Assembly (NCBI GenBank): GCA_028289425.1
Contig: JANQPL010000017.1
Location: 434,001-498,000, forward strand
Length of the DNA: 64,000 nucleotides
Direction of reading: 5' to 3'
DNA from: Alphaproteobacteria bacterium
Lineage (GTDB): Bacteria > Pseudomonadota > Alphaproteobacteria > JANQMY01
Both the position numbers and the translations under genes were made by a program. Positions 38,975 through 54,493 of this stretch are shown here, one piece after another (position 1 is the stretch's first letter; each line of letters begins with the position of its first letter). The notes beneath the pieces were generated by a model. It was not told where the DNA came from. It did no database searches and saw only the letters and a list, made by a program, of their open reading frames with translations.

Positions 38975-39592
38975 ATGGCAAGACCCGCATATACATCCGC
39001 AGAACGCGAAGAAATCGAAACCGACATCCGGCGTGCCGCTTTGAAGCTGTTCGCCAAGGTTGGCTATCGCGGCACAAGCCTTCGAGCGATCGCGAAAGAG
39101 CTGGGGTGGAGCGCCACGGCGCTTTACCGCTACTACGACAATAAAGAATCTCTCGTCGCTGCCATCCGCGCCGACGGTTTCAAAGAGATGCAAGCAATCC
39201 TTTCCAGTGTGCATCAGGCGGCGGCGTCCGGCGTCGACGCCGGCGCAATGGGCATTCGTGCCTATGTGGCCTTTGCCTCCGAGAAGCAGGCGCTCTATCA
39301 GCTCATGTACGAGCTCGACCAAGGTGAAGTGGCGGAACTGCCGATTGTCAGGCAAGAGCGCCGCAAGGCTTTTGCGGCAGCGGAAGCTATCGCCGCCGAT
39401 GTTATTCAGGAAACAAATCTATCGTACACGGATAATGAACTGGCGCATCTCATGTGGGTGGCGGCCCACGGGCTTGCGGCGCTTCAAGTGGCAAGCCAGC
39501 TCGATCTTGGCATGACTTCCGGAGAACTTATCGGGCCCGTCGTGCAAACACTGATGCGCGGCCTCTTAAACAAGGAGCAGGATCATGTATGA
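38975..39592 (+). CDS. TetR/AcrR-family transcriptional regulator
   Basis: 205 residues. IRRAALKLFAKVGYRGTSLRAIAKELGWSATALYRYYDN is the helix-turn-helix, given here by its key parts AKVGYRGTS, AIAKELGWS and LYRYYDNK. A WHG-type C-terminal ligand domain (LMYELDQGEVAELP, LMWVAAHGLAALQ) follows. It starts an eight-gene unit and overlaps the next gene by 8 bp, so it probably regulates the unit including the sulfatase and FGE genes. Confidence 0.9.
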   Translation: MARPAYTSAEREEIETDIRRAALKLFAKVGYRGTSLRAIAKELGWSATALYRYYDNKESLVAAIRADGFKEMQAILSSVHQAAASGVDAGAMGIRAYVAFASEKQALYQLMYELDQGEVAELPIVRQERRKAFAAAEAIAADVIQETNLSYTDNELAHLMWVAAHGLAALQVASQLDLGMTSGELIGPVVQTLMRGLLNKEQDHV

Positions 39593-40826
39593 CGTCATTG
39601 TTGTCGGTGCCCGCTGTGGCGGCGCCCCCTTGGCCATGTTGCTTGCGCGCGAAGGCCACAAGGTGCTGATGGTTGACCGCATGGCCATCGGCACGGATAT
39701 CATGTCCACTCATTATGTGAAGCGCAGCGGGGCGAGCCTGCTCAACAGATGGGGACTCCTCGAGCAGTTGCGCCAGGCCGGCACGCCGGGCATTTCCGAG
39801 CTTAGTTTCAACATCGATGAAACCAAACTGGCGGGCAGGGCGCCGGGATGTGACGGCGTTGCTGAAGATTTCACGCCGCGCCGCACGGTTCTTGATCCGA
39901 TCCTTGTGCAGGCTGCGGCCGAAGCCGGCGCGGAAATCCGCGATCAGTTTACCGTCAGCTCTCTGATCTTCGATGAGGGACGGGTAGCGGGCATTCGCGG
40001 CACGGGTAAAAACGGCATCGAAACGGCGGAGCGCGCCAAGGTGGTTGTAGGCGCGGACGGCATCCGTTCATTGGTTGCCAAATCGGTGGGGGCTGAAACC
40101 ATTGTGGATGGCGGTTCGCACACCTGCGGTTACTACGCCTATTACTCCGGCATGCGCGATAAGGACAATGCAGCGAGCCTTAGCATCCGCACGCAAGACC
40201 GGCGCTTTTACATTACCTTTCCTACCAATGACGACTTGGACATGGTGTTTCTGTTCTGGCCGGCGGAGGAAGCACGGTCCGTGCGCAAGGACCTGGAGGC
40301 GGCGTTCGGCGAAAGCCTGAAACTTGTGCCGGAACTTGAGGCCCGCGTCCGGCAAGGTAAACGGGAAACCCGCATTACCGGTTCGCATCTCCTCCCCAAT
40401 TTTTTCCGGCGCGCCCATGGACCCGGCTGGGCCCTGGTGGGGGACGCGGCGCTCCATCGGGATCCGATCACGGCCCAAGGTATTACGAATGCATTCACCC
40501 ATGCAGCCATTCTCGGCGAAGAACTTTCGGCTGGACTCAAAGGCGATAAACCCATCGGTCAAGCGCTTGCCGATTATGACCGGCGCCAATTCGAAAAACT
40601 GAAGCCCATGTTCGATTACACGGTGCATCTATCCATGCTGCAGCCGCTGCCCGTAGAGGTAAAGCAAATGTTGCCGCTGATTGAAGGGAACCAAGAGGCG
40701 ATCGGCGCGTTCATCGGGTCGTTCCTCGGCAGTGTGCCGCTCGATCAAGTTTTTCCGCCTCATTTATTGGACCGATTTGCGGCCGATGTGGAACGCGGCA
40801 GGCCGGAGCTTCGCCATGTCGCCTAA
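39585..40826 (+). CDS. FAD-dependent oxidoreductase/monooxygenase
   Basis: 413 residues. FAD-binding Rossmann VVGARCGGAPLAMLLAREG at the N-terminus and the second FAD motif GWALVGDAALHRDPITAQG are those of the class A flavoprotein monooxygenase / geranylgeranyl-reductase fold. The first loop is GARCGG rather than GAGPAG, as in the FixC-like/PHBH subgroup. It overlaps the TetR gene by 8 bp and the next NTF2-like gene by 11 bp. It probably hydroxylates or reduces the pathway substrate. Confidence 0.88.
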   Translation: MYDVIVVGARCGGAPLAMLLAREGHKVLMVDRMAIGTDIMSTHYVKRSGASLLNRWGLLEQLRQAGTPGISELSFNIDETKLAGRAPGCDGVAEDFTPRRTVLDPILVQAAAEAGAEIRDQFTVSSLIFDEGRVAGIRGTGKNGIETAERAKVVVGADGIRSLVAKSVGAETIVDGGSHTCGYYAYYSGMRDKDNAASLSIRTQDRRFYITFPTNDDLDMVFLFWPAEEARSVRKDLEAAFGESLKLVPELEARVRQGKRETRITGSHLLPNFFRRAHGPGWALVGDAALHRDPITAQGITNAFTHAAILGEELSAGLKGDKPIGQALADYDRRQFEKLKPMFDYTVHLSMLQPLPVEVKQMLPLIEGNQEAIGAFIGSFLGSVPLDQVFPPHLLDRFAADVERGRPELRHVA

Positions 40827-41298
40827 AGATCTGAACACGCAAGACCGATTGCTGTGGCTTACCGACATTGAAGAGATCAAGCAGCTCAAGGCGCGTTATG
40901 CGCTCGCTTGTGACAATGACTACGACCCCGATGCGCTAGCCGATCTGTTTACGGAGGATGCCGTTTGGGATGGCGGCTTTATGGGCCGGGCGGAAACCCG
41001 GGACGGCATTCGCACCTTTTTCGCAAACGCGTCATCGGTGGTTGCCTTCGCCGTGCACGGCGTGAGCAACCCGCTCATTGAGGTGGCGGGCGACACCGCG
41101 AAAGGCCGTTGGTATCTGCACCAACCCATGGTGCTGCATGGCGACGGCGGCTGCTTCTGGTTCTGCGCACAATATGAAGATGACTATGTGCGCACGGACG
41201 ACGGCTGGAAGTTTCAGCATGTGCGTGTCAATGCGCGTGCTTTCACGCCCTTCGAAGAAGGGTTCGGCAAGGTCTTATTGGCCGATTTGCCGGGTTAG
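40816..41298 (+). CDS. NTF2-like (SnoaL) domain protein
   Basis: 160 residues from ATG 40816 (MSPKDLNTQDR), inside the end of the preceding gene. The cone-shaped NTF2 fold is indicated by IEEIKQLKARYALACDNDYDPDALADLF (core KARYALACD), EDAVWDGG and WKFQHVRVNARAF. The family includes dehydratases, isomerases and ring hydroxylating small subunits; a Tyr/Asp pair near the N-terminus could act. A second NTF2-like gene follows 9 bp downstream. Confidence 0.82.
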   Translation: MSPKDLNTQDRLLWLTDIEEIKQLKARYALACDNDYDPDALADLFTEDAVWDGGFMGRAETRDGIRTFFANASSVVAFAVHGVSNPLIEVAGDTAKGRWYLHQPMVLHGDGGCFWFCAQYEDDYVRTDDGWKFQHVRVNARAFTPFEEGFGKVLLADLPG

Positions 41299-41307
41299 GA
41301 GGAAATC

Positions 41308-41712
41308 ATGTCGACTCTTATCGATCATGCGAAAGGCTTCTATGCCATGGCGCTGAGCGATCCGGCGCAAGCCTGCGCTACATACCTTGCGCCGGACTTC
41401 ACCCTCGAAAACCCCTTGCCGGACACCATTCCTTTCGGTGGCGTTTATCACGGGGCGGAAGGATTTGTGGAATACCTCACCAAAATCGCCGCCGCCATCG
41501 ATATGGGCCCGCTCCACATGGAAGAATGGGCGGCGGACGACCATACGGTTGTTGTGCGTGGCGAAGAGGAAAGTCTCGTCAGATCAACGGGCCGCAAATA
41601 CCGCATGCGTTTCGTGCATTGGCTGACCTTCGATGGCGACGGCAAAGTCACCGCCATGCGCGAATTCAACGATACGGCGGAAATGGGAAAGGCGTTCGAT
41701 CATGAACATTAA
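41308..41712 (+). CDS. NTF2-like (SnoaL) domain protein
   Basis: 134 residues. Helical N-terminus (HAKGFYAMALSDP), DFTLENPLPDTIPFGGVYHG, and the last strands MRFVHWLTFDGDGKVTAMREFNDTAEMG match SnoaL-like polyketide-cyclase/ketosteroid-isomerase proteins. It is only distantly like its upstream neighbour. Start follows TTAGGAGG. Overlaps the sulfatase start by 11 bp. It may isomerise or dehydrate an intermediate. Confidence 0.82.
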   Translation: MSTLIDHAKGFYAMALSDPAQACATYLAPDFTLENPLPDTIPFGGVYHGAEGFVEYLTKIAAAIDMGPLHMEEWAADDHTVVVRGEEESLVRSTGRKYRMRFVHWLTFDGDGKVTAMREFNDTAEMGKAFDHEH

Positions 41713-43372
41713 CGCAAAACTCGCCGGGCTGCTCCTGTTCATCGGTGCGTGTGACGCCGGCGCCAATGAAATCATTCATGATGTGGAACATCAGCTGACA
41801 AAGGAACAACACGCGGAAGCGTGGCAGCAGGAAGATGCGCAGATCGACCAGGCGCTAAATGCGCTACAGGAAAAGCATGGCAAGCGCCCCAACATCATCC
41901 ATATCATGTGGGACGATGCGAGCCTGGGCGAGGTGGGTATTCCCGAACTCAACAAAGTTCTGGGGTATGACACGCCGCATATCAACCGCATGGCGGATGA
42001 AGGCATGGCGTTCACTCGCATGTACACGGAACCGTCCTGCACGCCCACCCGCGCAGCGGCGCTGACGGGCCGGCTGGCCGTTCGCTCAGGCATGTACAAG
42101 GTGGGCTTCCCACCGGAAGGTGCCGGTCTGCATGCGGATGAGGTAACCATTGCGGAAATCCTCAGCGCGAACGGATATGCCACGGGCTTTGTCGGTAAAG
42201 GGCATCAAGGCGACATCGAACAGGCCTATTTGCACAATCAGGGTTTCGATTACGCCAATTTCTCCATCTATAATCAGTATCCCTTCATGACGTGGAACCC
42301 GCGCGCCGCCATGGCGGGCCAGGCAAACGGCCTCATGCCGTTTCAGTGGGATAAGAAGCACACGCTGGATAGAGAGTTCCGGCCTCTGGCGTTCGTCAAT
42401 CAGCTTGAGGCCCGCAAAGGCGGCACGGCGAAAGAATTCATGGGCCCGCCCAACCCTGAAAACTACAAGAAGCTCATGCGCGCCCATCAACAGCAAACGC
42501 TTGCTTATATTCGCGATCATGCCGGAGGCGATGCCCCGTTTTACCTCGCTTATTGGCCGCATATGGCGGACCCCTTCGTGAAGCCGCAAGACCTCACCAG
42601 TAATGCGTCCACTTGGTACGCCTATTCAATGGAACAGCTTGACCGTGATATCGGCGAAGTGCTGGCCCTGGTCCAAGAGTTGGGCATTGCGGAAAACACG
42701 CTGGTGATCGCCATGGCGGATAACGGCCCCATGCACGAGCTCGCGCCCAATGGACCGCACGAAGTGATCTTCGCCGGCTACAAGAGCGACCATCGCGAAG
42801 GTGGCGTGCGGGTGCCGGCATTTGCCTGGTGGCCCGGTGCCATCGAAGAAGATCAAGTCGTCAACGACATGATCACCGTGCATGATCTGTTCACCACATT
42901 CGCCCGGCTGGCTGGCGCAATGGCTTCCATCCCCACCGATCGTGTGATTGACGGCGTGGATCAGACCGCGCTTCTTCTCAACGGCGAAGGACGGTCGCGC
43001 CGCGACTATTATCACATCTACACGGGCGATATGTTGGCGGCCACGGTCAAACAGCAGTTCAAGCGGGATTGGACCAAGGAGCGTCCTGGCCTTGTGACCG
43101 ATGCCTTTGTCGATCTTTATCGCGACACGCGTGAAGAATATGGTGACATGCCGCCTTACCTCTGGGCGTGGCTGGCATTCGATCACATGCGCGAGCGGCA
43201 TGTGGCGCAGATGGAAAGGTTTCCGAACCGTCCCGTCACGCGCGGCGTGCCTTATGAAGGGATTGACGATTTGCGGGCGGACGCAAAGCGCATGTCTGAT
43301 CGTCTGGTGAAATACAATCTATCAACAGGCGAAGCTACGCCTGGCCGTCAATCCTCGCTGATCGGCGAATAG
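41702..43372 (+). CDS. Sulfatase (arylsulfatase family, Cys-type)
   Basis: 556 residues from ATG 41702. The N-terminus MNINAKLAGLLLFIGACDAG is a signal with lipobox-like IGAC and Asp at +2, suggesting an inner-membrane-anchored periplasmic lipoprotein. The sulfatase signature CTPTR (Cys113) is the site converted to formylglycine by an FGE. Metal ligands include the Asp pair in MWDDASLG and the later ADNGP motif. It hydrolyses a sulfate ester. It precedes a DUF3179 gene by 9 bp, and an FGE gene is in the same unit, so the modifying enzyme is supplied locally. Confidence 0.9.
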   Translation: MNINAKLAGLLLFIGACDAGANEIIHDVEHQLTKEQHAEAWQQEDAQIDQALNALQEKHGKRPNIIHIMWDDASLGEVGIPELNKVLGYDTPHINRMADEGMAFTRMYTEPSCTPTRAAALTGRLAVRSGMYKVGFPPEGAGLHADEVTIAEILSANGYATGFVGKGHQGDIEQAYLHNQGFDYANFSIYNQYPFMTWNPRAAMAGQANGLMPFQWDKKHTLDREFRPLAFVNQLEARKGGTAKEFMGPPNPENYKKLMRAHQQQTLAYIRDHAGGDAPFYLAYWPHMADPFVKPQDLTSNASTWYAYSMEQLDRDIGEVLALVQELGIAENTLVIAMADNGPMHELAPNGPHEVIFAGYKSDHREGGVRVPAFAWWPGAIEEDQVVNDMITVHDLFTTFARLAGAMASIPTDRVIDGVDQTALLLNGEGRSRRDYYHIYTGDMLAATVKQQFKRDWTKERPGLVTDAFVDLYRDTREEYGDMPPYLWAWLAFDHMRERHVAQMERFPNRPVTRGVPYEGIDDLRADAKRMSDRLVKYNLSTGEATPGRQSSLIGE

Positions 43373-43381
43373 GAGGCCGCC

Positions 43382-44602
43382 ATGATCTGGGAAATTGCCC
43401 ATTGGAGCCTCCTGATCACTTCGCTGGGTATTGCCTTTGTCTACTTCAGAGATCTTGGTGATGTCACCCAGGCTTTTCTGAAGGTTCGCCGGCGCAACAT
43501 GATCTTTGCCATTCGGCACGAACGGCAGATGACCGCGGTAAGTGCGCTTTGTCTGGGGGCGGCGGCGACCCTTCATTGGGGAACCGGTGCAGGCATTGGG
43601 TGGCTCTTCATTCCCGCTGCGATGGGTGTTCTGCTGGTGCTCGCGTTTCCCTGGGTGTGGCTTCACATAGGTTTGCGCAATCAGCAAGGTACAGCGACGT
43701 ACTATTCGACCGTTGAAGCCAAAGGCTATGTGCGCCCAGAGGAAAGTGTGATCGTCATCGAAAACAATGGCGAAGCGCTTGCGTATCCGGACCATCATAT
43801 TAAGCGCCCGCATCTGGCCAGCCGGCCTGAAGGCCTGGGCGGTGAAGATGTGCTCATGACCTATTGTGCTATGTCCCATTTGGGATTGGCGTACCAACCG
43901 AGTATCGACGGCGAAGACCTCGACTTGGAGGTAATTGCTCAGCACGGCAACAATCTCATCATGAAAGATGTAACAACGGGTGAACCCATCCAACAGGTCT
44001 ATGGGACACGTGAACGCGACGGTAGGCATGGACCAAGCATGCGGCCGTGGCCCACCTTCCGTATGAGCTTTCGTGGATTTGAGAAGGCGTTTCCGGATGG
44101 CCAGGTGTTTCTGAACAAGCCGGTTTCCTTCGCGCTCAATCCGTTGCTCAACCTTTTCGACAATGTGATCGAAGCGATCTTTTTGTGGGCGCTCACGCCT
44201 CACCACCACAGCGAAGCCTTGATGTTTGAGACCTTGGATGTGGAAGACGACCGATTGCCCCGCAAGACGCTGGTTTGGGGCGTGTCGGCGGGAAATGAGT
44301 CGGTTGCGTACACGGAAGATTTTGTGCGCGAGAACGGTAATCTCATCAATTCGACTGTGGGCGGGCGCGCCATCGTTGTCGCTTATGATGACGCGCACGA
44401 GTCGCTGGGGGTCTTTTACAATGACAGCAGTGCGCCTGTATCGGCGATCGATTTCCGGGGTAATACCGATCGCGGTCCGTTGAAGCGCGTGGAAACCGTT
44501 CAAGCCGGCGCCTATTGGTGTGTGTGGGCGAACTTTTTCCCCCAGACTGATCTTAATCGAATGCCGGCCGACCTATCGCAGGAAGCAGCAGCGGCTGCGT
44601 AA
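43382..44602 (+). CDS. DUF3179 membrane protein
   Basis: 406 residues. Three membrane helices in the first 100 residues (IAHWSLLITSLGIAFVYF; SALCLGAAATLHWG; WLFIPAAMGVLLVLAF). The rest resembles DUF3179: EESVIVIENNGEALAYP, VLMTYCAMSHLGLAY, NNLIMKDVTTGEPIQQVYG. The Cys in TYCAMSHLG corresponds to the conserved Cys of that family, whose function is unknown. It lies between the sulfatase and amidase genes. Confidence 0.8.
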   Translation: MIWEIAHWSLLITSLGIAFVYFRDLGDVTQAFLKVRRRNMIFAIRHERQMTAVSALCLGAAATLHWGTGAGIGWLFIPAAMGVLLVLAFPWVWLHIGLRNQQGTATYYSTVEAKGYVRPEESVIVIENNGEALAYPDHHIKRPHLASRPEGLGGEDVLMTYCAMSHLGLAYQPSIDGEDLDLEVIAQHGNNLIMKDVTTGEPIQQVYGTRERDGRHGPSMRPWPTFRMSFRGFEKAFPDGQVFLNKPVSFALNPLLNLFDNVIEAIFLWALTPHHHSEALMFETLDVEDDRLPRKTLVWGVSAGNESVAYTEDFVRENGNLINSTVGGRAIVVAYDDAHESLGVFYNDSSAPVSAIDFRGNTDRGPLKRVETVQAGAYWCVWANFFPQTDLNRMPADLSQEAAAAA

Positions 44603-44632
44603 TCGGCCCATGGTGCAGTGAGGAGTGAGGCG

Positions 44633-46018
44633 ATGACAGATCAAAACACACTGCTTTTTCAGTCCTTGTCCGAAGTGTCGCAAAGGATCGCATCGCGGGA
44701 TTTGTCTCCGGTGGATCTAACCGAAGCGGTTCTCAATGCCATTGATGAGCAGGATGAGTATTACGGGGCGTATGTTGTCGTGGACCGCGAGGGTGCCCAG
44801 AAGGCAGCCCTAGACGCGGAAACCGAAGTCAGTCGGGGCGGCTATCGAGGCCCGCTGCATGGCATTCCGATCGGCATCAAAGACATTTTCGGCACCAACG
44901 GTCTGCCCACACGGTGCGGCTCGGTCATCGATGCGGTGCTGGTACCCGACAAAGACGCAGCCGTTGTCGCCAACCTTCGGAAAGCCGGGGCGATCATTAT
45001 CGGGAAAACGGTCACCACGGAATTTGCTTTGTCGGGCTACCACCCCACAAACCGGCCGCCGCAGAATCCGTGGGGCAAAGACCGTTGGGCGGGTGTTTCT
45101 TCCAGTGGCTCGGGTGTTTCGACGGCGGCCGGGCTTGCATTCGGGGCGCTTGGCACGGATACGGGCGGCTCGGTCCGGTTTCCGTCGGCGGCGAACGGTG
45201 TGGTGGGGCTGAAGCCGACCTTTGGCCGCCTAAGTACGTCGGGTGTTTTCCCATTGGCGCCTAGTTTGGATCACGTGGGCGCGTTCGGACGTCGTGTATT
45301 TGATGCGGCAATCATCTGCGACGCTGCCGGCGGTAAAACGCCCCGTGTTCCAAACCAAGCGAATTCGCCGCGCCGTCCATTGCGGATCGGTCTGGATCCG
45401 GCATTTGTAGAGGCTCATGCCGATCCTGAGGTGACGGCGGCATTTGAGCAGGCGATTGGCGTGTTTGAAGGGCAGGGGCATCATTTCGCTGCATTGGATT
45501 TTGGGCCGCTTTCTCAACTGGCTGCGCTGTGGGGACCGACGACAGCGTGGGAAGCGGCGGAGGTTCACCAAAAATACTTCCCAGAGCACGCGGATCTATA
45601 TGGTCCGGTGTTTCGCAATCTGCTGGAAGAAGGGGGACAGCTGACAGCGGATCAAAAGAACCATCTTGAATCCGCCCGGCGCGACGGGGTGTCCAAACTC
45701 AGCAACCTGTTGCAGCAGGTGGATGTTCTGGCATGCCCCAGCGCGCCGTCGCCCTCGATGCCGCTTTCCGATTTTCCCCCGGACGCGATCTTGCCTGCTG
45801 ATGCCGTCGCGGAGTTTGTGACGTTTACGGCGCCGTTTAACTTCTCAGGATCACCAACGATTTCAGCACCCTGTGGGTTTTCAACAGAGGGATTGCCGCT
45901 CAGCCTGCAATTGATCGGCAAACATGATGATGAGGAAACGCTGGTTCAGCTGATGGGCGCTTACGAACAAGCGACGGATTGGCACAAGCGACGACCGCCT
46001 GAGCCCGAAGTAGTGTGA
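44633..46018 (+). CDS. Amidase (amidase signature family)
   Basis: 461 residues. The Ser-cisSer-Lys triad is visible: Lys83 in GIKDIFG, cis-Ser at 156/157 in VSSSGSG and nucleophile Ser180 in DTGGSVRFPS. The start at ATG 44633 has GAGGAGTGAG upstream; GTG 44618 in the same frame is possible. The enzyme hydrolyses a carboxamide, and the GatA subunit is less likely because no gatB/C is near and the unit is catabolic. It lies 30 bp after the DUF3179 gene and 42 bp before the FGE gene. Confidence 0.9.
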   Translation: MTDQNTLLFQSLSEVSQRIASRDLSPVDLTEAVLNAIDEQDEYYGAYVVVDREGAQKAALDAETEVSRGGYRGPLHGIPIGIKDIFGTNGLPTRCGSVIDAVLVPDKDAAVVANLRKAGAIIIGKTVTTEFALSGYHPTNRPPQNPWGKDRWAGVSSSGSGVSTAAGLAFGALGTDTGGSVRFPSAANGVVGLKPTFGRLSTSGVFPLAPSLDHVGAFGRRVFDAAIICDAAGGKTPRVPNQANSPRRPLRIGLDPAFVEAHADPEVTAAFEQAIGVFEGQGHHFAALDFGPLSQLAALWGPTTAWEAAEVHQKYFPEHADLYGPVFRNLLEEGGQLTADQKNHLESARRDGVSKLSNLLQQVDVLACPSAPSPSMPLSDFPPDAILPADAVAEFVTFTAPFNFSGSPTISAPCGFSTEGLPLSLQLIGKHDDEETLVQLMGAYEQATDWHKRRPPEPEVV

Positions 46019-46060
46019 TATTGTCGGTTGGTCAAAGCGCTTCCACTGGGGCTTTTGCGT

Positions 46061-47089
46061 ATGAACCGATCTGTAAACTGGCTGTTTGTGGGCGCCGCCA
46101 TTGCCGCTGCGCTCCTGCTGCTTGTGGCCTTCTATTTTGCCTTGCGGATATGGCCAACGCCGGCGTCGAGTGTCCAGGCGGATACCTGCTTATCCGTTTC
46201 GGCAGAAGCTATGGTAACTGGGCAAGGCCGGTCAGGAATGGTTTGGGTGGCGCCGGGTGTTGGCCAGATGGGTTCAAAGCGCGGGTACCGTGAAGAGTAC
46301 CCGGTCAAGGACGTCACAACGTCCGGCTTTTGGATCGACGCCCACGAAATCACCAACGCCCAGTTCGAAGCGTTTGTCGACGCGACCCGCTACATCACAA
46401 ATGCGGAACGTGCGGCGGAACTAGGGTTTCCCGACAATGGTTCCTATGTGTTTGCTTTCGACCGCACCGGAAGTTGGCGATTTGTGAAGGGAGCCAATTG
46501 GCGTCATCCGGAAGGCCCCGGCAGCACGATTGAAGGGCGCCCCAACGACCCGGTGGTGCAAGTCTCTCTTGCCGATGCCCGGGCATACGCCAAATGGGTC
46601 GGACGCGACCTGCCAACAGAAGCCCAATGGGAATACGCGGCACGGGGCGGGACGGGGCCTTCAGAATTTCCGTGGGGGGATGAATTGCAGCCCGCCGATC
46701 AATTCATGGCCAATACTTGGCAGGGCTTTTTTCCCTTCAGCAATACGGGCGAAGACGGATTTTACAAGCGGGCACCGGTCGGCTGTTTTGCGGCAAACGG
46801 CTATGGTCTTTACGATATGATCGGCAATGTATGGGAGCTGACCCAATCCGCTTACTACGGCGATCATTCCGAAGCGGCGTTAATCGACGACAAGCCGGGC
46901 CATGATGCGCGCCAGCCCGGCGTTCCCGTGGCTGTGATCAAGGGCGGCTCATTTTTGTGTGCCGAGAATTTCTGCCGCCGATATCGGGCGAGCGCCCGGC
47001 AGCCGCAGGACACGGCATTAGGCACGAATCACATCGGATTCAGAACGGTGCTTCGCGCCGATGCCCCCACAGATAATGTACCGCGCTGA
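46061..47089 (+). CDS. Membrane-anchored formylglycine-generating enzyme (FGE/SUMF1 family)
   Basis: 342 residues from ATG 46061. An N-terminal helix (about 5-27, WLFVGAAIAAALLLLVAFYF) acts as signal anchor, placing the catalytic domain in the periplasm. The FGE fold shows GGxxMGS-like GMVWVAPGVGQMGS, NAQFEAFVDATRY, LPTEAQWEYAARGG, GNVWELTQS and IKGGSFLCAENFCRRYRASA. Cys300 and Cys305 match in spacing the two catalytic cysteines of human FGE (336 and 341), so this is probably an active enzyme, unlike EgtB or PvdO relatives. It would oxidise the CTPTR Cys of the sulfatase at 41702. Confidence 0.85.
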   Translation: MNRSVNWLFVGAAIAAALLLLVAFYFALRIWPTPASSVQADTCLSVSAEAMVTGQGRSGMVWVAPGVGQMGSKRGYREEYPVKDVTTSGFWIDAHEITNAQFEAFVDATRYITNAERAAELGFPDNGSYVFAFDRTGSWRFVKGANWRHPEGPGSTIEGRPNDPVVQVSLADARAYAKWVGRDLPTEAQWEYAARGGTGPSEFPWGDELQPADQFMANTWQGFFPFSNTGEDGFYKRAPVGCFAANGYGLYDMIGNVWELTQSAYYGDHSEAALIDDKPGHDARQPGVPVAVIKGGSFLCAENFCRRYRASARQPQDTALGTNHIGFRTVLRADAPTDNVPR

Positions 47090-47219: not shown

Positions 47220-48404
47220 ATGGGGGCTCATCCACTTGAACATCGACTGTCGGCATCGGGGCCCAAGCGCATTCTTGCGCTTGATGGCGGTGGCGTTCGT
47301 GGCATCTTGACGCTGAGCTATCTTGAACGCATTGAGCAGATTCTCGGCGAAAGGTATGGCAACCGGGACTTCCGGCTGTCGGATTACTTCGATCTGATCG
47401 GCGGCACGTCGACGGGCGCAATCATTGCGAGCGGCCTGTCCCTTGGCAAACCAGTCTCCGAGTTGATTGATCTTTACTTGGCGATGTCCAGCCAGATCTT
47501 TCCACGCAATAAGGATGGTCTGGGATTGTTTGCGACCAAGTATCGTTCGCGTCCTTTGCGGCAGCAACTCAGGGAAGAGTTGGGATCTCAAACGATGGGC
47601 TCGACGGAAATTCAGACCGGCCTGGCCATCGTTGCGAAACGGTTGGATACGGGCAGCACGTGGATCGTGCACAATAATCCGAACGGCCGCTATTATGATC
47701 AACAGGCCGATGGCGGCAATGGGTTTCCGAACAAAAGCTATCTTGTCCGTCAGGTTGTGCGTGCGAGCACGGCGGCGCCACACTACTTCATGCCGGAATT
47801 TATCCCGGTGTTGCAGGGCCTCTATCAGCTGCCGGTTACTCTCGGTCAACATGGCGCTTTTGTCGACGGCGGCGTGAGCCCGCACAACAATCCGGCCCTT
47901 CTCTTGTTCATGATGGCGACTATTGAGGGCTATAACCTCAATTGGGAGATGGGTGATGATCGGCTAAAGATCGTCTCCGTAGGTACCGGCACGGCGCCAT
48001 TCAAATTGGCCAAGTGGCGCATTCGGTATCGGCCGGCAGCATGGCTTGCCAGCAGCGCTTTGTTGTCCATGATGAACGATAGCGATCAACTGGTTCAGAC
48101 CATGATGCAATGGATGGGTTCAACCGACAAACCGTGGCCGATCGATTCAGAAATCGGCGATTTAGGTGGGTCGTCATTCGGGGGGCAGAAGTTCTTCCGC
48201 TACAGCAGATACAATGTGGAACTGTCGCGCGATTGGCTGAGGGATAATCTGAATGAAGAGTATTCCAAGCGACAGCTGAAGAGACTCAAGCGAATGGACC
48301 GATCGCAAAGTGCACCGCAGTTGTTGGAACTGGGGCGCAGAGCCGCTGAGTTACAGGTCGCCCGCGAAGACTTTGAAGCGCAGTTCGATATTCGTTCTGA
48401 TTGA
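47220..48404 (+). CDS. Patatin-like phospholipase (CapV-like)
   Basis: 394 residues from ATG 47220; an in-frame TTG lies at 47193. The patatin fold is clear: oxyanion loop DGGGVRGI, nucleophile Ser64 in GTSTGAI, and Asp216 in VDGGVSPHNNPA, forming the Ser-Asp dyad. Architecture and length resemble the bacterial cytosolic patatins that act as CBASS effectors, which cut membrane phospholipids once activated. No CD-NTase gene is nearby. It may be part of the conflict-like island to its right, or an independent lipase. It is 41 bp from the convergent gene at 48446. Confidence 0.88.
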   Translation: MGAHPLEHRLSASGPKRILALDGGGVRGILTLSYLERIEQILGERYGNRDFRLSDYFDLIGGTSTGAIIASGLSLGKPVSELIDLYLAMSSQIFPRNKDGLGLFATKYRSRPLRQQLREELGSQTMGSTEIQTGLAIVAKRLDTGSTWIVHNNPNGRYYDQQADGGNGFPNKSYLVRQVVRASTAAPHYFMPEFIPVLQGLYQLPVTLGQHGAFVDGGVSPHNNPALLLFMMATIEGYNLNWEMGDDRLKIVSVGTGTAPFKLAKWRIRYRPAAWLASSALLSMMNDSDQLVQTMMQWMGSTDKPWPIDSEIGDLGGSSFGGQKFFRYSRYNVELSRDWLRDNLNEEYSKRQLKRLKRMDRSQSAPQLLELGRRAAELQVAREDFEAQFDIRSD

Positions 48405-48445
48405 CCTAATCATCCACTAGGCCGGTGTGGCTGTTCCGGTGCTTC

Positions 48446-49456
48446 TTATTCTGACGGCGCATTCAAATGCCAAAGGTACTCGAATTCCGAAAAGCAGCTT
48501 TTGTATATTGGATCATCGTAATGGGCCAGGATCAGCGGTGATTGAGGCGTGTTGGCTGAAAACAAATACATGACAACGCACATTTCTTGGTCAGAACGCA
48601 CGAGTTGCTGATGTGGGATGCCGCGCTTTAGTTTTCGGAAAATGATGTTTTCAGACCTGGCGGCCAGGTCCTCATAGATCTTGTTCGCTTCGCTAATCAT
48701 CTCCTGAACAATCCGCACGCTGTTGCTTGTGGTGTGATGCGTGTTAAGCCAGACGGGAAGCGCGTCGTTTTCACTGTCCATGATCATTATGCGAACTTTT
48801 ACATTGCGGTCCGAAGCCCGTTGGAATTCATCCATGAGCTCTCGATACTGAGTCCAGCCCCGCATCGACACGCCCAATATGTCGATGTGAGTTTGCGCTT
48901 TGGTCACCATGTCAAACCAAAAGTCGGAGGTGACGATCTTTTCCGCTTTTTCATAAGCGGAAAGGCCCCCCGAAGACTGCCCCAGTGGCGACAGGTTTTG
49001 GCCGAAGGGGACTTGGGGACTCCGTGACGAGGATCTGAGGGCGGAGATGCGCTCGACAATTTGTTTTTTGTAGATGCCTTCATTGATCGGCCGTGGTTTC
49101 AGGTCGTATTCGATGGTGCGCATATCGTGAATGTCGAACGGGAGATACTGTCCTTTCTCGATCATCGAAATGACGGGACGCCCCGCCGACTGGGCGATCG
49201 CCAACTCGTAAAAAACGTTCGGATTGTGATAGGTGAGCACCGCGATTACGAAATCTTCCGACAGGATAGAGTGAATCATCTGTTCGGTGATTTTGCCGGG
49301 CTCTTGCGTATGGTCGGCGCGATAGCCGTGTATGCCCAGTTCATCCAAGGCAGGCTTGATGATGAAGTCGAAGACATCGTCCGCATGCTCGCGCATCGCG
49401 GACCCTTCTTCGGATATTGGGCTGATCACAAAACAGGTTGCGGTGGTATCGCTCAC
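48446..49456 (-). CDS. TIR/deoxyribosyltransferase-like protein with PLD-like C-terminus
   Basis: 336 residues from GTG 49456. Residues 1-150 show the nucleoside-deoxyribosyltransferase/TIR-like pattern: CFVISPISEEGS, DDVFDFIIKPALDELGI, DFVIAVLTYHNPNVFYELAIAQ with Glu84 as the probable catalytic acid. The C-terminal part (about 180-330; ILGVSMRGWTQY, KVRIMIMDSEND) suggests a PLD-like fold without an intact HKD motif, so it may bind rather than cut. Its start overlaps the upstream gene stop by four bases (GTGA), coupling the two. NAD or nucleotide cleavage is inferred, not shown. Confidence 0.65.
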   Translation of the reverse strand: MSDTTATCFVISPISEEGSAMREHADDVFDFIIKPALDELGIHGYRADHTQEPGKITEQMIHSILSEDFVIAVLTYHNPNVFYELAIAQSAGRPVISMIEKGQYLPFDIHDMRTIEYDLKPRPINEGIYKKQIVERISALRSSSRSPQVPFGQNLSPLGQSSGGLSAYEKAEKIVTSDFWFDMVTKAQTHIDILGVSMRGWTQYRELMDEFQRASDRNVKVRIMIMDSENDALPVWLNTHHTTSNSVRIVQEMISEANKIYEDLAARSENIIFRKLKRGIPHQQLVRSDQEMCVVMYLFSANTPQSPLILAHYDDPIYKSCFSEFEYLWHLNAPSE

Positions 49457-51462
49457 GAGGCCAAAACCTGTTTCAGGTCAATATTTGTCATATGCCCCCC
49501 ATGTCGTTTAACCATTTCAATCATATCGGCGGTGCCGCCGGCCCCGCCACTGGGTCCGCCGTCATAGAGTGTGACGATGTTGGCTTTGTCCTTTCCCCAT
49601 GCGACGGTGTTGTAATAGAGCCGTAAATTATTGCGGACATAATCGTCAGGAAGTCCTTTTCCCTTGGCTGCAATCGGCGGCCCTAAATCATATTGCAAAT
49701 CTAGCCGTTCTTCGGCCCGGTCCCAAACGGATTCGAAGAGGCTGAGCCACAGATCGCCCCCAAAGGCGACCGAATGCTCAATAAATTCGACTCGATGATG
49801 TGGGAGATATAGATGAAGTTTCATGCCACGCTTCAAGGCTTCATCCGCAAACAGAAGATCGCCCCCGCAAGCACCGCTTGAAAGCGCAAGATCATCTTTG
49901 TTGGCCCCTAACCGGTCGAGATACACGGCAATGGCATCGCGTACTTTGCGAATGTCGCTGTCGATGTTCGGAAAACGGGGCGCATCTCGGTCGGGCAGGT
50001 CCACCATATGGCCCACAAACAAGACCGACTTGTTTGGGACGAAGTCGGGCGTGTACCTCTCAAGCCGAAAATCGAGCTCGGTGAGGTACCCACTCACCAC
50101 ATCTTCTTGAAAACCCAATCTTTGGAACAGCAAGAGCTGTTGCCGTGTGGAGGCAAGTTTGAAGAGATCCTGGCCGGCACACTCCACCGCCCGGCCCAGT
50201 GCGTCTTCCGCCCGGTCAAGGTTTCCCGCGGTGAATTCCAGCTCTAACAAAGAAGCGTGGGCATAATAATTGCCTTCCGACTTCATCATGTCTGCCAATA
50301 TCGCCCAGCGCACCGCCCCAATTACATCGTGTCCGACCGGGTCGCCCGCGCCGACATGATGACGCAAGGCCTCCAGGGTCGTTACATTAACCCCCGTATA
50401 GTGGTTTGACGGGCAGATCTGAAATCCTTCGCGATAGCGCCGAATGGATTGGGATAGCGGTGTGTTGGCCCGTCGCGCAAGTTCTTTGGCCTCCTCGACG
50501 GACTCAGCGTCTTTCCAACGCTCCAGCCAATCGTCCTTGGCGATGCGCCCCAAATTCCCCAGTGTTTCCGCTTCGTGATCGGTCGCCAATAGGCCGATTG
50601 CCTGTAAACGCGGATCCTGGCGCTGTTTCGAAAGCGTGTCTTCCAAGAGCGTGCGCGCCTTGTTGCGCTCTCCCAACCGGTTATGGGCAAGTGCTTGCTG
50701 CTGCATACTGACTAAGTCGAAATCGTCAATGTCGAGCGCGCGCTGGAATTGATCAATCGCCAATTCATAGGAGCGCAGTGAGATCAAGGCCTTGCCGGCG
50801 GCGCGGCGGGCTTCCAGTTGGAAGCCCATGGCCGGCGGGTCTTCGGCCAACACCATAATGTCGCCGGCGCGATTCTTGTCCTTCGCTTCGGTAAGACGCT
50901 GCGTCCACCGGTCATAACCGTTCCAAAAACCGTCTGCCTCATTGACGCGCAACCTTTTCCATTCGGGCTCTTCTAGGTTTTTGAGCAAATGGTAGATCGG
51001 ACTGCTGCGTACACGGATGGTCTCTGCCGCCGCCTGCAAGGCACGCTTGGTCAATCGGCTGCGGTCGTCCTCCAGAAAGGCGGGGTCCGGGCGGCCGCCT
51101 TTCAGGTGATACTTCTCGATTTTCTCGGTCGTAATATTGAAGGGGATCCTGTCCCGGCAGGCCAGCATGATTACGCCACCGGTGCGCAAGGCATGGCGTG
51201 CCCCCAGCTCATACCACACATTGGGATTGTCGATGGTGATGTCGGCGATCACCAGGTCCGAGATGAGCAGCCGTTGAAACATGTCCAACGGAATGTTGCT
51301 TCGTGGATCTTCCAACCGGTCGCACCGATCAACGGCATAACCCGCGGCCCTGACCGCCGGTTCGATAAGGTCTTCATAGACGGCGTCGAAATCGATGAGG
51401 TCGCCGGAGCCGTCCACCAGGTTTGGCTTCTCAAAAAAAGGCATGCTTACAAAGGCATACAT
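49453..51462 (-). CDS. TIR-like / TPR (TRAFs-binding type) / SLOG-like protein
   Basis: 669 residues from ATG 51462, which has GGAGGG 6 bp upstream; the frame extends to 51591 but that part is not protein-like. Domains: 1-150 TIR/deoxyribosyltransferase-like (YAFVSMPFFEKPN, LVIADITIDNPNVWYELGARHA, Glu85); 150-480 helical TPR module of TRAFs-binding type (NHYTGVNVTTL near residue 355); 500-640 a Rossmann-like SLOG-type domain (SVLFVGHMVDLPDR, SSGACGGDLLFADEALKRG). SLOG domains bind or make nucleotide ligands. The protein could thus sense, relay and act in a conflict pathway. Confidence 0.7.
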   Translation of the reverse strand: MYAFVSMPFFEKPNLVDGSGDLIDFDAVYEDLIEPAVRAAGYAVDRCDRLEDPRSNIPLDMFQRLLISDLVIADITIDNPNVWYELGARHALRTGGVIMLACRDRIPFNITTEKIEKYHLKGGRPDPAFLEDDRSRLTKRALQAAAETIRVRSSPIYHLLKNLEEPEWKRLRVNEADGFWNGYDRWTQRLTEAKDKNRAGDIMVLAEDPPAMGFQLEARRAAGKALISLRSYELAIDQFQRALDIDDFDLVSMQQQALAHNRLGERNKARTLLEDTLSKQRQDPRLQAIGLLATDHEAETLGNLGRIAKDDWLERWKDAESVEEAKELARRANTPLSQSIRRYREGFQICPSNHYTGVNVTTLEALRHHVGAGDPVGHDVIGAVRWAILADMMKSEGNYYAHASLLELEFTAGNLDRAEDALGRAVECAGQDLFKLASTRQQLLLFQRLGFQEDVVSGYLTELDFRLERYTPDFVPNKSVLFVGHMVDLPDRDAPRFPNIDSDIRKVRDAIAVYLDRLGANKDDLALSSGACGGDLLFADEALKRGMKLHLYLPHHRVEFIEHSVAFGGDLWLSLFESVWDRAEERLDLQYDLGPPIAAKGKGLPDDYVRNNLRLYYNTVAWGKDKANIVTLYDGGPSGGAGGTADMIEMVKRHGGHMTNIDLKQVLAS

Positions 51463-51723
51463 CAGGGTCCCTCCCGCCGCAGACCGTGCCCAGAGTATGC
51501 CAAAGACATATCCTTGGAAAAAGGTGGGCGCCTGGGATTCATCCGGTGTGGACATATGGCGGACCACCGCCTCCGCGGGAATTTTGGCCAAAGGCCAGGT
51601 AGTCGGCCAAAAAAGCTGCTCACATCAGCCCAAATTTGATCGTCTCGTCACTCATCATACTGACTCAACAAGTGTTCCAAGCTGGGATAGAGTTTGAACT
51701 AAGGGACTGTTGAGGCCGAAAAA
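51463..51723. promoter_or_regulatory. Divergent intergenic region of the island
   Basis: 261 bp between the start of the TIR-TPR-SLOG gene (minus) and the GH108 gene (plus). It must hold promoters in both directions. I see no strong -35/-10 pair, no inverted repeat over 6 bp and no encoded regulator beside it. Confidence 0.4.
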
Positions 51724-52857
51724 ATGAACTCAGCAAAAACCATCAATATCGATGCGGTAGAGTTGGAATTGGCGGATCGCTGGGCCGAGTTGGAGCGCTT
51801 GGGCACCCAAGACCCTGAACAGCTCACCGCGGCTGTGAAGTGTTTTCAAGAAGCCTGCCGGCAGTCGGACCACCTCACGGCCGACCAAGGCGAGCGGCTC
51901 GCGGAACACGTGGCGTGGAGCTTCGGCCCCCTCCTTCGCGCGCTTGAGGAGGGGCGCAGCCTGGAAAGTTTGTCCGTATACGATGACGGTTATGAATGCT
52001 TGACCGCACTCAACCGGCGCCAGGCCCTTCGGCGCCTGATCATGGGCGCGGTGGCGGGCGCAACGCTTGTCAGCACTGTTGCCACGTCCAATGCCGCCCC
52101 CAGCTTTTCCCATGGCCCGGATCCTGAACCTATCGTGATGGAGCTTGTCGTTGACGTCGCGATCCGAGCGGCGGAAGAAAGCAGCGCGCTGCCGGGTCTG
52201 CCCTCCGGCGCGGCGGATTTGTTCGAGCGGTCCATGTCTTTCACCGCGAAATGGGAAGGCGGGTTTAGCGATCATGTAGCGGATCGTGGTGGCGCCACCA
52301 AATATGGGGTTACTCAGGGATTGTTGGACGCGGTGAGGGAACGCGATGGCGAACCGCCGATGGATGTCCGTGATCTGACCAAAGATCAGGCCTTGGAAAT
52401 CTACAGAAGTGAGTTTTGGATACCATGCCGGTGCGATAAACTACCTGAACGGGTTGCTATGTGGGTCCTTGATACGGCGGTCAATTCGGGAATGTACCGG
52501 GCCATTAAAATGTTACAAGCAGAAGTGGGGGCGAAGGCCGACGGAAAACTTGGACCGAAATCACTGGCGAAGGTACATGCACAGGACCCGCATGATCTGT
52601 TCAATCGGCTCATCGATGCAAGGGCAAAATTTGTCAGCGCCATTGTCGAGAAAGACCAGTCTCAGTCTGTCTTTCTGAAAGGGTGGGAAAACCGAATATA
52701 CGATATGCGCGTGTTTGCCGACGCGCGTGGGTTCGAGACCATTGAGCAATTTGGCTCGCATATTCAGCGTTGGTGGCAGCTGCTGAAGAAAAATCCGGCT
52801 ACTGATGATCCAGTAGGCCATTTGTCCGACAATGACTTCCCTGGCGTGCCCGTGTGA
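51724..52857 (+). CDS. GH108 lysozyme-like protein with cytoplasmic N-domain and internal membrane segment
   Basis: 377 residues. Residues 1-96 are a soluble, acidic, helical domain with no signal peptide. At 97-125 NRRQALRRLIMGAVAGATLV forms a twin-Arg-like charged patch plus hydrophobic helix ending SNAA, so the remainder would be exported or periplasmic. Residues 170-340 match GH108 muramidases: KWEGGFSDH with catalytic Glu178, DRGGATKYGVT, then a peptidoglycan-binding part (NSGMYRAIKMLQ, DGKLGPKSL). It presumably cuts peptidoglycan. The next gene begins 4 bp after its stop. Confidence 0.75.
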   Translation: MNSAKTINIDAVELELADRWAELERLGTQDPEQLTAAVKCFQEACRQSDHLTADQGERLAEHVAWSFGPLLRALEEGRSLESLSVYDDGYECLTALNRRQALRRLIMGAVAGATLVSTVATSNAAPSFSHGPDPEPIVMELVVDVAIRAAEESSALPGLPSGAADLFERSMSFTAKWEGGFSDHVADRGGATKYGVTQGLLDAVRERDGEPPMDVRDLTKDQALEIYRSEFWIPCRCDKLPERVAMWVLDTAVNSGMYRAIKMLQAEVGAKADGKLGPKSLAKVHAQDPHDLFNRLIDARAKFVSAIVEKDQSQSVFLKGWENRIYDMRVFADARGFETIEQFGSHIQRWWQLLKKNPATDDPVGHLSDNDFPGVPV

Positions 52858-52861
52858 TGTG

Positions 52862-54493
52862 ATGGCGGCGATCCGTAAACGTATAGACTCAATTTGTGCA
52901 GAAGCGTCGGATAACGTCCAGGTAGCGCTGCATGGCGAATTGCTGGCGCTGATTGCCGATCTGGCGGACCGGCACGCCGCTAAGCCCGAACTCGCGCGGG
53001 ACCTGCTGCACGCCTTACGCGATGCGCGGGCGTTTGACCGGTTGCACGTGGCGGCAACCGATATGGCGGCGCGGGGCTTGGTGTGCCCTTTTTCCAACCG
53101 TATGAAGGTGCAGGCCCTTGTGGAACTGGAGCGTTACGACGAGGCGCTGCGGGAGATCCATCAGGCGCGCGCTGCCTATCCCGAGGACAAGGGCGAGCAG
53201 GTTGAACTTGCGGGCCTGGAAGGGCGTATCTTCAAACAGCGCTTTGTGGCGTCGGTCGGGGCGAACGCGCCGGATGCGGCAGCGCTTAGGTACTCGATGA
53301 CCGCCTATATGAAGGGGTGGTCTCTGTCCGGTGGCCATCAGGCCTGGCTGGGCGTGAACCTTGCCGCGTTGTGGCACCGGGCGCGCAGCGACCGCTTTAT
53401 TGAAGGTGCGGATGGTGATCTTGAAGCGTTGGCGAAACAGGTGTTGGCCGCTGCGGCCCGTGAAAAAGAAGCGGACCCGGAAGATCCCTGGCCCGATGCC
53501 TCGCTGGGGGAAGCTGCCCTTGCGCTTGGCGACTATGAATTTGCGCTTGCCTCTTACAGGGCTTTTGCGTCGCGGGACGCCGTCGATGCTTTCGCGGTTG
53601 CCAGCGCCCACCGTCAACTGACCGAGATTTGGCAAATCCATGATCAGCCAGTCAACGACCTTGTCCAACATTTATACGATCAAATTACCGGGCTGCTGAT
53701 GCGCCTGCCGAACGGCCGAATAGATTTCGGGGGCCGCGACTTGTCCGGCGTTGCAGGCCGACTCAGCGGTGTGCAAGAGGATGATGGGTATGAAGGGCTT
53801 TGGGGCAGCCGGCCCGTGCCGCTCCAATGGGCCAAACGCATGATCGAAATCGGCAATTGCGTCGGTCGGATCGAACGCCGCGGCGGCATGGGCGAAGCCG
53901 CCGGGACCGGCTTTATCATTCGCGCGGATCTTCTGTCCCCTGAATGGTCGGATTATGGACAAGTTTTGGTAACCAATGAGCACGTGGTTGGTCGTCGCGA
54001 TGACGCAACGCTCACGCCGGAGCAGACGGCCGTGCGATTTTCTCAAGTGAATCCGCAGGAACAAATGTCCGTGGGGCCGGTTTTGTGGTGTTCCGATCGC
54101 GAGCACCATGATGTTACCATCTTCCGTATGGACCATGTGCCGGACAGTGTCGGGAAGTTTGGTGAGATAGCACCCCTGTCGAGCCTTAGTGATGGTGCCG
54201 GTGGAAACTTTTCGGGCGTTACTGTCATTGGCCATCCGGCAGGCTCGGAGCGGCTGCATCTTGGCGTCGAAAACCTGCATGTAGAAGACATGGAGCGCGA
54301 CCGTCCGGCGGGCGAGCCGGAGCGTGTCTGGTACAGATGCCCGACCATGAAAGGGAATTCCGGAAGCCCCGCACTTTCATGGCGGCAGTTGGAAGTTACC
54401 GCCGTCCATCATCGGGAGATTAAGGCGCGGGGATGCAATGAAGGCATCAGTCTCGACTCAATCCGCAGGGCGATAGCCAGAAGCAAGGCGTGA
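52862..54493 (+). CDS. TPR-trypsin-like serine peptidase
   Basis: 543 residues from ATG 52862 (MAAIRKR); ATG 52832 or GTG 52859 are possible. Residues 1-290 are TPR-like helices (ALVELERYDEALREI; GHQAWLGVNLAALWHRA near 164; LALGDYEFALASY). Residues 330-530 form a trypsin-like domain: GTGFIIRAD, His374 in TNEHVVG, Asp417 in HHDVTIF, Ser500 in GNSGSP, so the triad is complete. No signal peptide is seen, so the peptidase is cytosolic. It is coupled to the GH108 gene and shares the GVNxxxL type TPR module with the divergent TIR-SLOG protein. Confidence 0.82.
   Translation: MAAIRKRIDSICAEASDNVQVALHGELLALIADLADRHAAKPELARDLLHALRDARAFDRLHVAATDMAARGLVCPFSNRMKVQALVELERYDEALREIHQARAAYPEDKGEQVELAGLEGRIFKQRFVASVGANAPDAAALRYSMTAYMKGWSLSGGHQAWLGVNLAALWHRARSDRFIEGADGDLEALAKQVLAAAAREKEADPEDPWPDASLGEAALALGDYEFALASYRAFASRDAVDAFAVASAHRQLTEIWQIHDQPVNDLVQHLYDQITGLLMRLPNGRIDFGGRDLSGVAGRLSGVQEDDGYEGLWGSRPVPLQWAKRMIEIGNCVGRIERRGGMGEAAGTGFIIRADLLSPEWSDYGQVLVTNEHVVGRRDDATLTPEQTAVRFSQVNPQEQMSVGPVLWCSDREHHDVTIFRMDHVPDSVGKFGEIAPLSSLSDGAGGNFSGVTVIGHPAGSERLHLGVENLHVEDMERDRPAGEPERVWYRCPTMKGNSGSPALSWRQLEVTAVHHREIKARGCNEGISLDSIRRAIARSKA

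Follow-up and report, generated by a model that had tools for sequence, protein, structure and literature searches.

The window analyzed here, a 64,000-nucleotide stretch of DNA, belongs to a 5.4 Mb genome (G000:C12) whose relatives by sequence are mostly Alphaproteobacteria. It contains a run of four genes on the same strand, which code for a sulfatase, a DUF3179 protein, an amidase and an FGE, and are separated by gaps of 9, 30 and 42 bases. The genes and their relevant features are:

41702..43372, + strand: S1 (type I) sulfatase, 556 aa, ATG start (PF00884, E 1.6e-39; PDB relatives are sulfatases)
41702..41764, + strand: Sec-type signal of the sulfatase, MNINAKLAGLLLFIGACDAGA, with a lipobox IGAC/D or a type-I site AGA/NE (from reading and orthologue N-termini)
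42038..42052, + strand: formylglycine motif CTPTR of the sulfatase, Cys113-Arg117 (motif reading)
43382..44602, + strand: DUF3179 membrane protein, second gene of the run (PF11376, E 7.1e-43)
44633..46018, + strand: amidase-signature enzyme, third gene of the run (PF01425, E 2.3e-93)
46061..47089, + strand: FGE (SUMF1-type), 342 aa, ATG start (PF03781, E 2.9e-71)
46079..46150, + strand: N-terminal hydrophobic helix of the FGE, residues 7-30, predicted signal anchor (AlphaFold helix, hydropathy)
46187..46189, + strand: FGE Cys43, first half of a putative structural disulfide (residue reading, co-occurrence)
46784..46786, + strand: FGE Cys242 (APVGCF), second half of the putative disulfide (residue reading, co-occurrence)
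46958..46975, + strand: CAENFC of the FGE, with the catalytic copper-binding Cys300 and Cys305 (reading, alignment invariance)

The first three genes of the run close a longer operon (38975-46018) with the order tetR, FAD oxidoreductase, two SnoaL-like genes, sulfatase, DUF3179 and amidase. This order is kept in a second family of the class (L210), and the operon probably encodes the catabolism of a small sulfated compound. The initial annotation had assigned the FGE and the sulfatase to one unit; the same-strand run agrees with this, but the link is not conserved, as the FGE is encoded elsewhere in the L210 relative. The DUF3179 gene also adjoins the sulfatase in genome G478 and on a Ruegeria plasmid, and is found beside sulfatases in other genomes (e.g. 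L212, 5309-6643); the Ruegeria protein is annotated as a '(seleno)protein'. Members of this family share a conserved cysteine (TYC/SYC/TFC), and the DUF3179 protein could conceivably have a redox function next to the sulfatase. On the other side of the FGE gene the window has a different character. At 47220-51591 a patatin-like phospholipase, which closely resembles the phospholipase effectors of CBASS-type systems (PADLOC Effector, E 1e-50), is adjoined by two genes on the minus strand; both match TIR-like domains weakly, and one of them has a TPR-S sensor domain. Together these genes possibly constitute a conflict or defence cluster. Near the patatin, a trypsin-like peptidase with a fused TPR-S sensor domain (52832-54493) represents another conflict-type architecture.

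With a sulfatase domain and a CxPxR motif (CTPTR at 113), the first protein of the run is, by its sequence, an S1 formylglycine-dependent sulfatase and a predicted sulfate-ester hydrolase. It has only two cysteines, Cys17 in IGAC (residues 14-17, followed by Asp18) and Cys113 in CTPTR; the residue numbers given in the initial annotation are right. Its export is not in doubt, but the odds that it carries a lipid anchor, as had been proposed, are about even. The lipobox pattern is present and is kept in a same-genus relative (LFLGACDAGANE, 88% identity), but its cysteine is absent outside the genus: a 79%-identical orthologue from another family (SVQSADLIHD) has a type-I site instead, as do three Ruegeria homologues, and the window sulfatase itself has a type-I site, AGA/NE, at the homologous place. 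These observations do not support the lipid anchor or, in consequence, the proposed inner-membrane retention through Asp at position +2, which in any case follows an E. coli rule.

The FGE has four cysteines, at positions 43, 242, 300 and 305. The last two lie within the motif GGSFLCAENFC and are invariant in all 63 aligned FGEs, which upholds the earlier statement that both catalytic cysteines are kept. Of proteins with solved structures, human FGE is its best match (E about 1e-67). Among the chains ranked by Foldseek, to which the structure comparison was limited, the model matches human FGE with a Z of 37.5 (46% identity; rmsd 1.7 over 258 residues). The Z is about 37 for the bacterial FGEs with bound copper, and far lower, about 26, for PvdO and PorK. 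By sequence and fold the protein is thus an aerobic FGE of the SUMF1 type, with formylglycine formation as its predicted activity.

The FGE had also been said to begin with a signal anchor, and its N-terminus agrees: residues 8-26 are uncharged with a mean Kyte-Doolittle value of 2.6, and residues 7-30 form a single helix in the AlphaFold model (63 aligned FGEs, mean pLDDT 89.8). The gene may start at ATG 46061 or at TTG 46028, neither with a strong ribosome-binding site, and this uncertainty leaves some room for an ordinary cytosolic FGE whose helix results from a wrongly assigned start or from hydrophobic residues that occur there by chance. This is highly improbable, as the stretch lies downstream of both candidate starts, cytosolic FGEs lack such a stretch, and the FGE of a same-genus genome (G001) keeps an anchor, albeit one of different sequence, with an export signal kept in relatives more generally. 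The anchor ahead of the domain, together with membership in a clade of exported FGEs described below, places the window FGE with the exported group.

To survey export signals across bacterial FGEs we used two sets, namely the 80 nearest relatives of the window FGE in named genomes, and 72 FGEs that possess the catalytic cysteine pair, taken from 398 evenly sampled Pseudomonadota genomes. An FGE was called exported by a simple hydropathy rule if an uncharged hydrophobic stretch preceded the domain downstream of any possible start codon; four proteins with spurious far-upstream stretches (L177, L198, L082 and L091) were assigned to the cytosolic group by hand. Exported and cytosolic FGEs number 42 and 38 among the nearest relatives, and 32 and 40 in the even sample. 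Since composition alone passes the rule in 24% of shuffled sequences, the shuffle test is weak and the argument rests on the contrast between the two groups. Anchors, Sec peptides and lipoboxes are interchangeable among the relatives; an example of the lipoprotein type (LIAAC/GGD) is the FGE of G478, a genome with the same sulfatase operon. A lipobox signal places an FGE outside the cytosol, and the presence of one in 38 of the 74 exported FGEs of both sets, about half, indicates that FGEs reach one and the same compartment by varying targeting devices. Prokaryotic FGE is described as residing in the cytosol (PMC4505483), which is the usual view that the initial annotation had reported. We found no description of an exported bacterial FGE with the catalytic cysteines in the open-access literature, and an earlier notice may exist in subscription papers.

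In the FGE tree the window protein falls into a clade composed entirely of exported FGEs (n=23, support 99/97). A second all-exported clade (n=13, support 94/91) includes Algoriphagus lipoproteins, and 27 cytosolic FGEs form a clade of their own (support 98/87). A single origin of the two exported clades is permitted by 24% of the bootstrap trees. The motif GGSHLC is restricted to cytosolic FGEs.

The remaining two cysteines of the window FGE show a distinctive distribution. In exported FGEs Cys43, which lies just behind the anchor, and Cys242 are both present in 55 cases, both absent in 20 and never found singly, after correction of L081 and L089 for lipobox cysteines; the two occur together in none of the 78 cytosolic FGEs. 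In the exported-FGE tree about five changes are seen for each cysteine, every one of them shared by both, but only one such contrast is placed on well-supported branches. This strict co-occurrence leads us to infer a structural disulfide between them, which would fit an oxidising compartment. The catalytic domain of exported FGEs has on average 2.9 cysteines, versus 5.6 in cytosolic ones. The cytosolic FGEs (L045 and others) have additional conserved cysteines at positions equivalent to 273, 274 and 329 of the window protein, in about 65-70 of 78.

These observations bear on the direction in which the anchor is inserted. The charges flanking the helix are similar on both sides and insufficient alone to fix the topology, so that an anchor by itself proves no direction. 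The FGE might therefore be anchored with its domain in the cytosol (N-out, C-in), and modify the sulfatase before Sec export, as described for some bacterial sulfatases; cytosolic FGEs do adjoin Sec sulfatases in 19 of 51 cases. We consider this arrangement quite unlikely, since relatives substitute lipoboxes or cleavable peptides for the anchor, and an oxidising compartment would suit both the Cys43/Cys242 pair, found only in exported FGEs, and the loss of further cysteines. The FGE domain is thus very probably situated on the periplasmic side of the inner membrane, a topology predicted from these sequence features.

Gene neighborhoods provide further information on the proteins that exported FGEs might act upon. 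Exported FGE genes are very often found beside, or overlapping, genes of exported sulfatases. Among the S1 sulfatases closest to each FGE, at most 3.5 kb away, those next to exported FGEs (n=41) comprised 37 with a Sec peptide or anchor, 4 Tat-like and no signal-less proteins, and those next to cytosolic FGEs (n=51) comprised 19 Sec, 16 Tat and 16 signal-less proteins (Sec versus rest, Fisher p 1.3e-7, with counts that are not phylogenetically independent). As the FGE tree shows only about two changes of location, such statistics are not independent tests, and a phylogenetically independent comparison of FGE location with sulfatase signal has just 1-2 independent pairs. The formylglycine cysteine is the sole cysteine in 27 of 38 Sec sulfatases near exported FGEs and in 5 of 19 near cytosolic ones. 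On the scale of whole genomes, the 14 with exported FGEs only contain 22 Sec, 1 Tat and 3 signal-less S1 sulfatases, and the 14 with cytosolic FGEs only contain 12 Sec, 9 Tat and 8 signal-less ones; these counts were curated by eye, and omit both N-terminally unreadable matches and the mostly signal-less DQ-type proteins resembling phosphonate hydrolases or choline sulfatases.

Within the genome of the window, the FGE studied here is the sole FGE-domain protein with the catalytic cysteine pair, and a search for the TIGR03942 radical SAM domain of the anaerobic maturase (anSME) gave no match. Five other FGE-domain proteins all lack the pair; one is EgtB-like, and among the rest are proteins with long extensions and hydrophobic segments. 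By eye, FGE domains that lack the catalytic cysteines are seen on long proteins whose N-terminal parts resemble TIR domains (L002, L003) or kinases (L281). Six of the seven sulfatase-family proteins of the genome carry signals or anchors. The seventh (L013, 1129-2667), a sulfatase-like protein with the motif CGPAR in a genome devoid of a cytosolic FGE, lacks a signal and would thus be out of reach of the window FGE. A specific pairing of the window FGE with the window sulfatase was considered and rejected: the FGE lies outside the syntenic unit in G478 and is absent from the sulfatase contig of G001. As the sole complete FGE of its genome, it would have to serve other exported sulfatases too, and a special pairing is hence unsupported. 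The window sulfatase is likely to be one of its clients, and the client range probably extends to the other exported sulfatases.

The same data allow a different role to be weighed. A periplasmic FGE could act on another secreted protein, or be structural like PorK/GldK or similar to PvdO, while the sulfatases are matured by a cytosolic activity like that of E. coli. Periplasmic proteins with the FGE fold and different jobs do exist (PMC12421860), and a few genomes with exported FGEs only contain signal-less S1 sulfatases; cases with either a signal-less or a Tat S1 sulfatase are L242, L217, L229 and L218. Nevertheless, the two catalytic cysteines do not vary within the family, the exported FGEs so often adjoin or overlap exported sulfatase genes, and the genome of the window has neither a second FGE with a CxxxxC motif nor an anSME match, all of which make such a role unlikely.

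We therefore favor, with a probability of roughly three in four, maturation after export, in which an anchored periplasmic FGE would modify the Sec-exported sulfatase at Cys113; topology, disulfide and reaction are all predictions here. The signal-less or Tat sulfatases in genomes with exported FGEs only, and the signal-less L013 protein, count against this reading. The N-terminal anchor would hold the FGE with its catalytic domain in the periplasm, stiffened by the Cys43-Cys242 disulfide, while Sec would send the sulfatase unfolded across the inner membrane. The FGE would then oxidise Cys113 to formylglycine with O2 and copper, before or during folding of the sulfatase, to give the active enzyme. 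That the FGE is anchored and belongs to all-exported groups suggests that activation probably takes place after secretion, and a sulfatase nearly free of other cysteines suits an oxidising compartment. Maturation after export, which the initial annotation had proposed, is thus the best reading of the interchangeable signals, the exclusive Cys43/Cys242 pair and the mostly Sec-exported sulfatases.

More generally, we lean towards the existence of two bacterial systems: a cytosolic FGE for cytosolic and Tat sulfatases, and at least two exported clades, the larger with the disulfide, for Sec sulfatases, which would have arisen independently of the ER. If this is true, the cytosolic location of prokaryotic FGE (PMC4505483) would no longer hold as a working rule, and bacteria and the ER would have separately placed the same reaction outside the cytosol. 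It would also explain the formylglycine of unfolded Sec-exported sulfatases in many Gram-negative bacteria. In practical terms, the usual co-expression of a cytosolic FGE may be wrong for such sulfatases, and a periplasmic FGE would be of use in the aldehyde-tagging of secreted proteins.

Among known systems, anSME (radical SAM) also makes formylglycine in sulfatases, but belongs to an unrelated family and was not found in the genome of the window. PvdO and PorK/GldK share the FGE fold and are exported to the periplasm or as lipoproteins, but are annotated as other than sulfatase maturases and are more distant from the window FGE (Z about 26, 27-31% identity). The FGEs of Streptomyces coelicolor and Thermomonospora curvata, known from copper-bound structures, share the fold and the copper cysteines, but are treated as lacking an export signal (PMC4505483), and by search score are closer to the CHxSYC clade. 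Human FGE (SUMF1) has the same fold, both catalytic cysteines and clients with the same CxPxR motif, and acts outside the cytosol around Sec translocation, as the window FGE is predicted to do. It differs in being a soluble ER protein of a separate clade, where it groups with seven cytosolic CHxSYC FGEs (support 100/100), and in having Ala at the aligned position of Cys242. In the present sampling, sequence thus separates the ER and periplasmic FGEs into more than one lineage. The similarity to the eukaryotic ER that had been noted initially therefore stands as one of function but not of descent, given the position of human FGE in an otherwise cytosolic clade.
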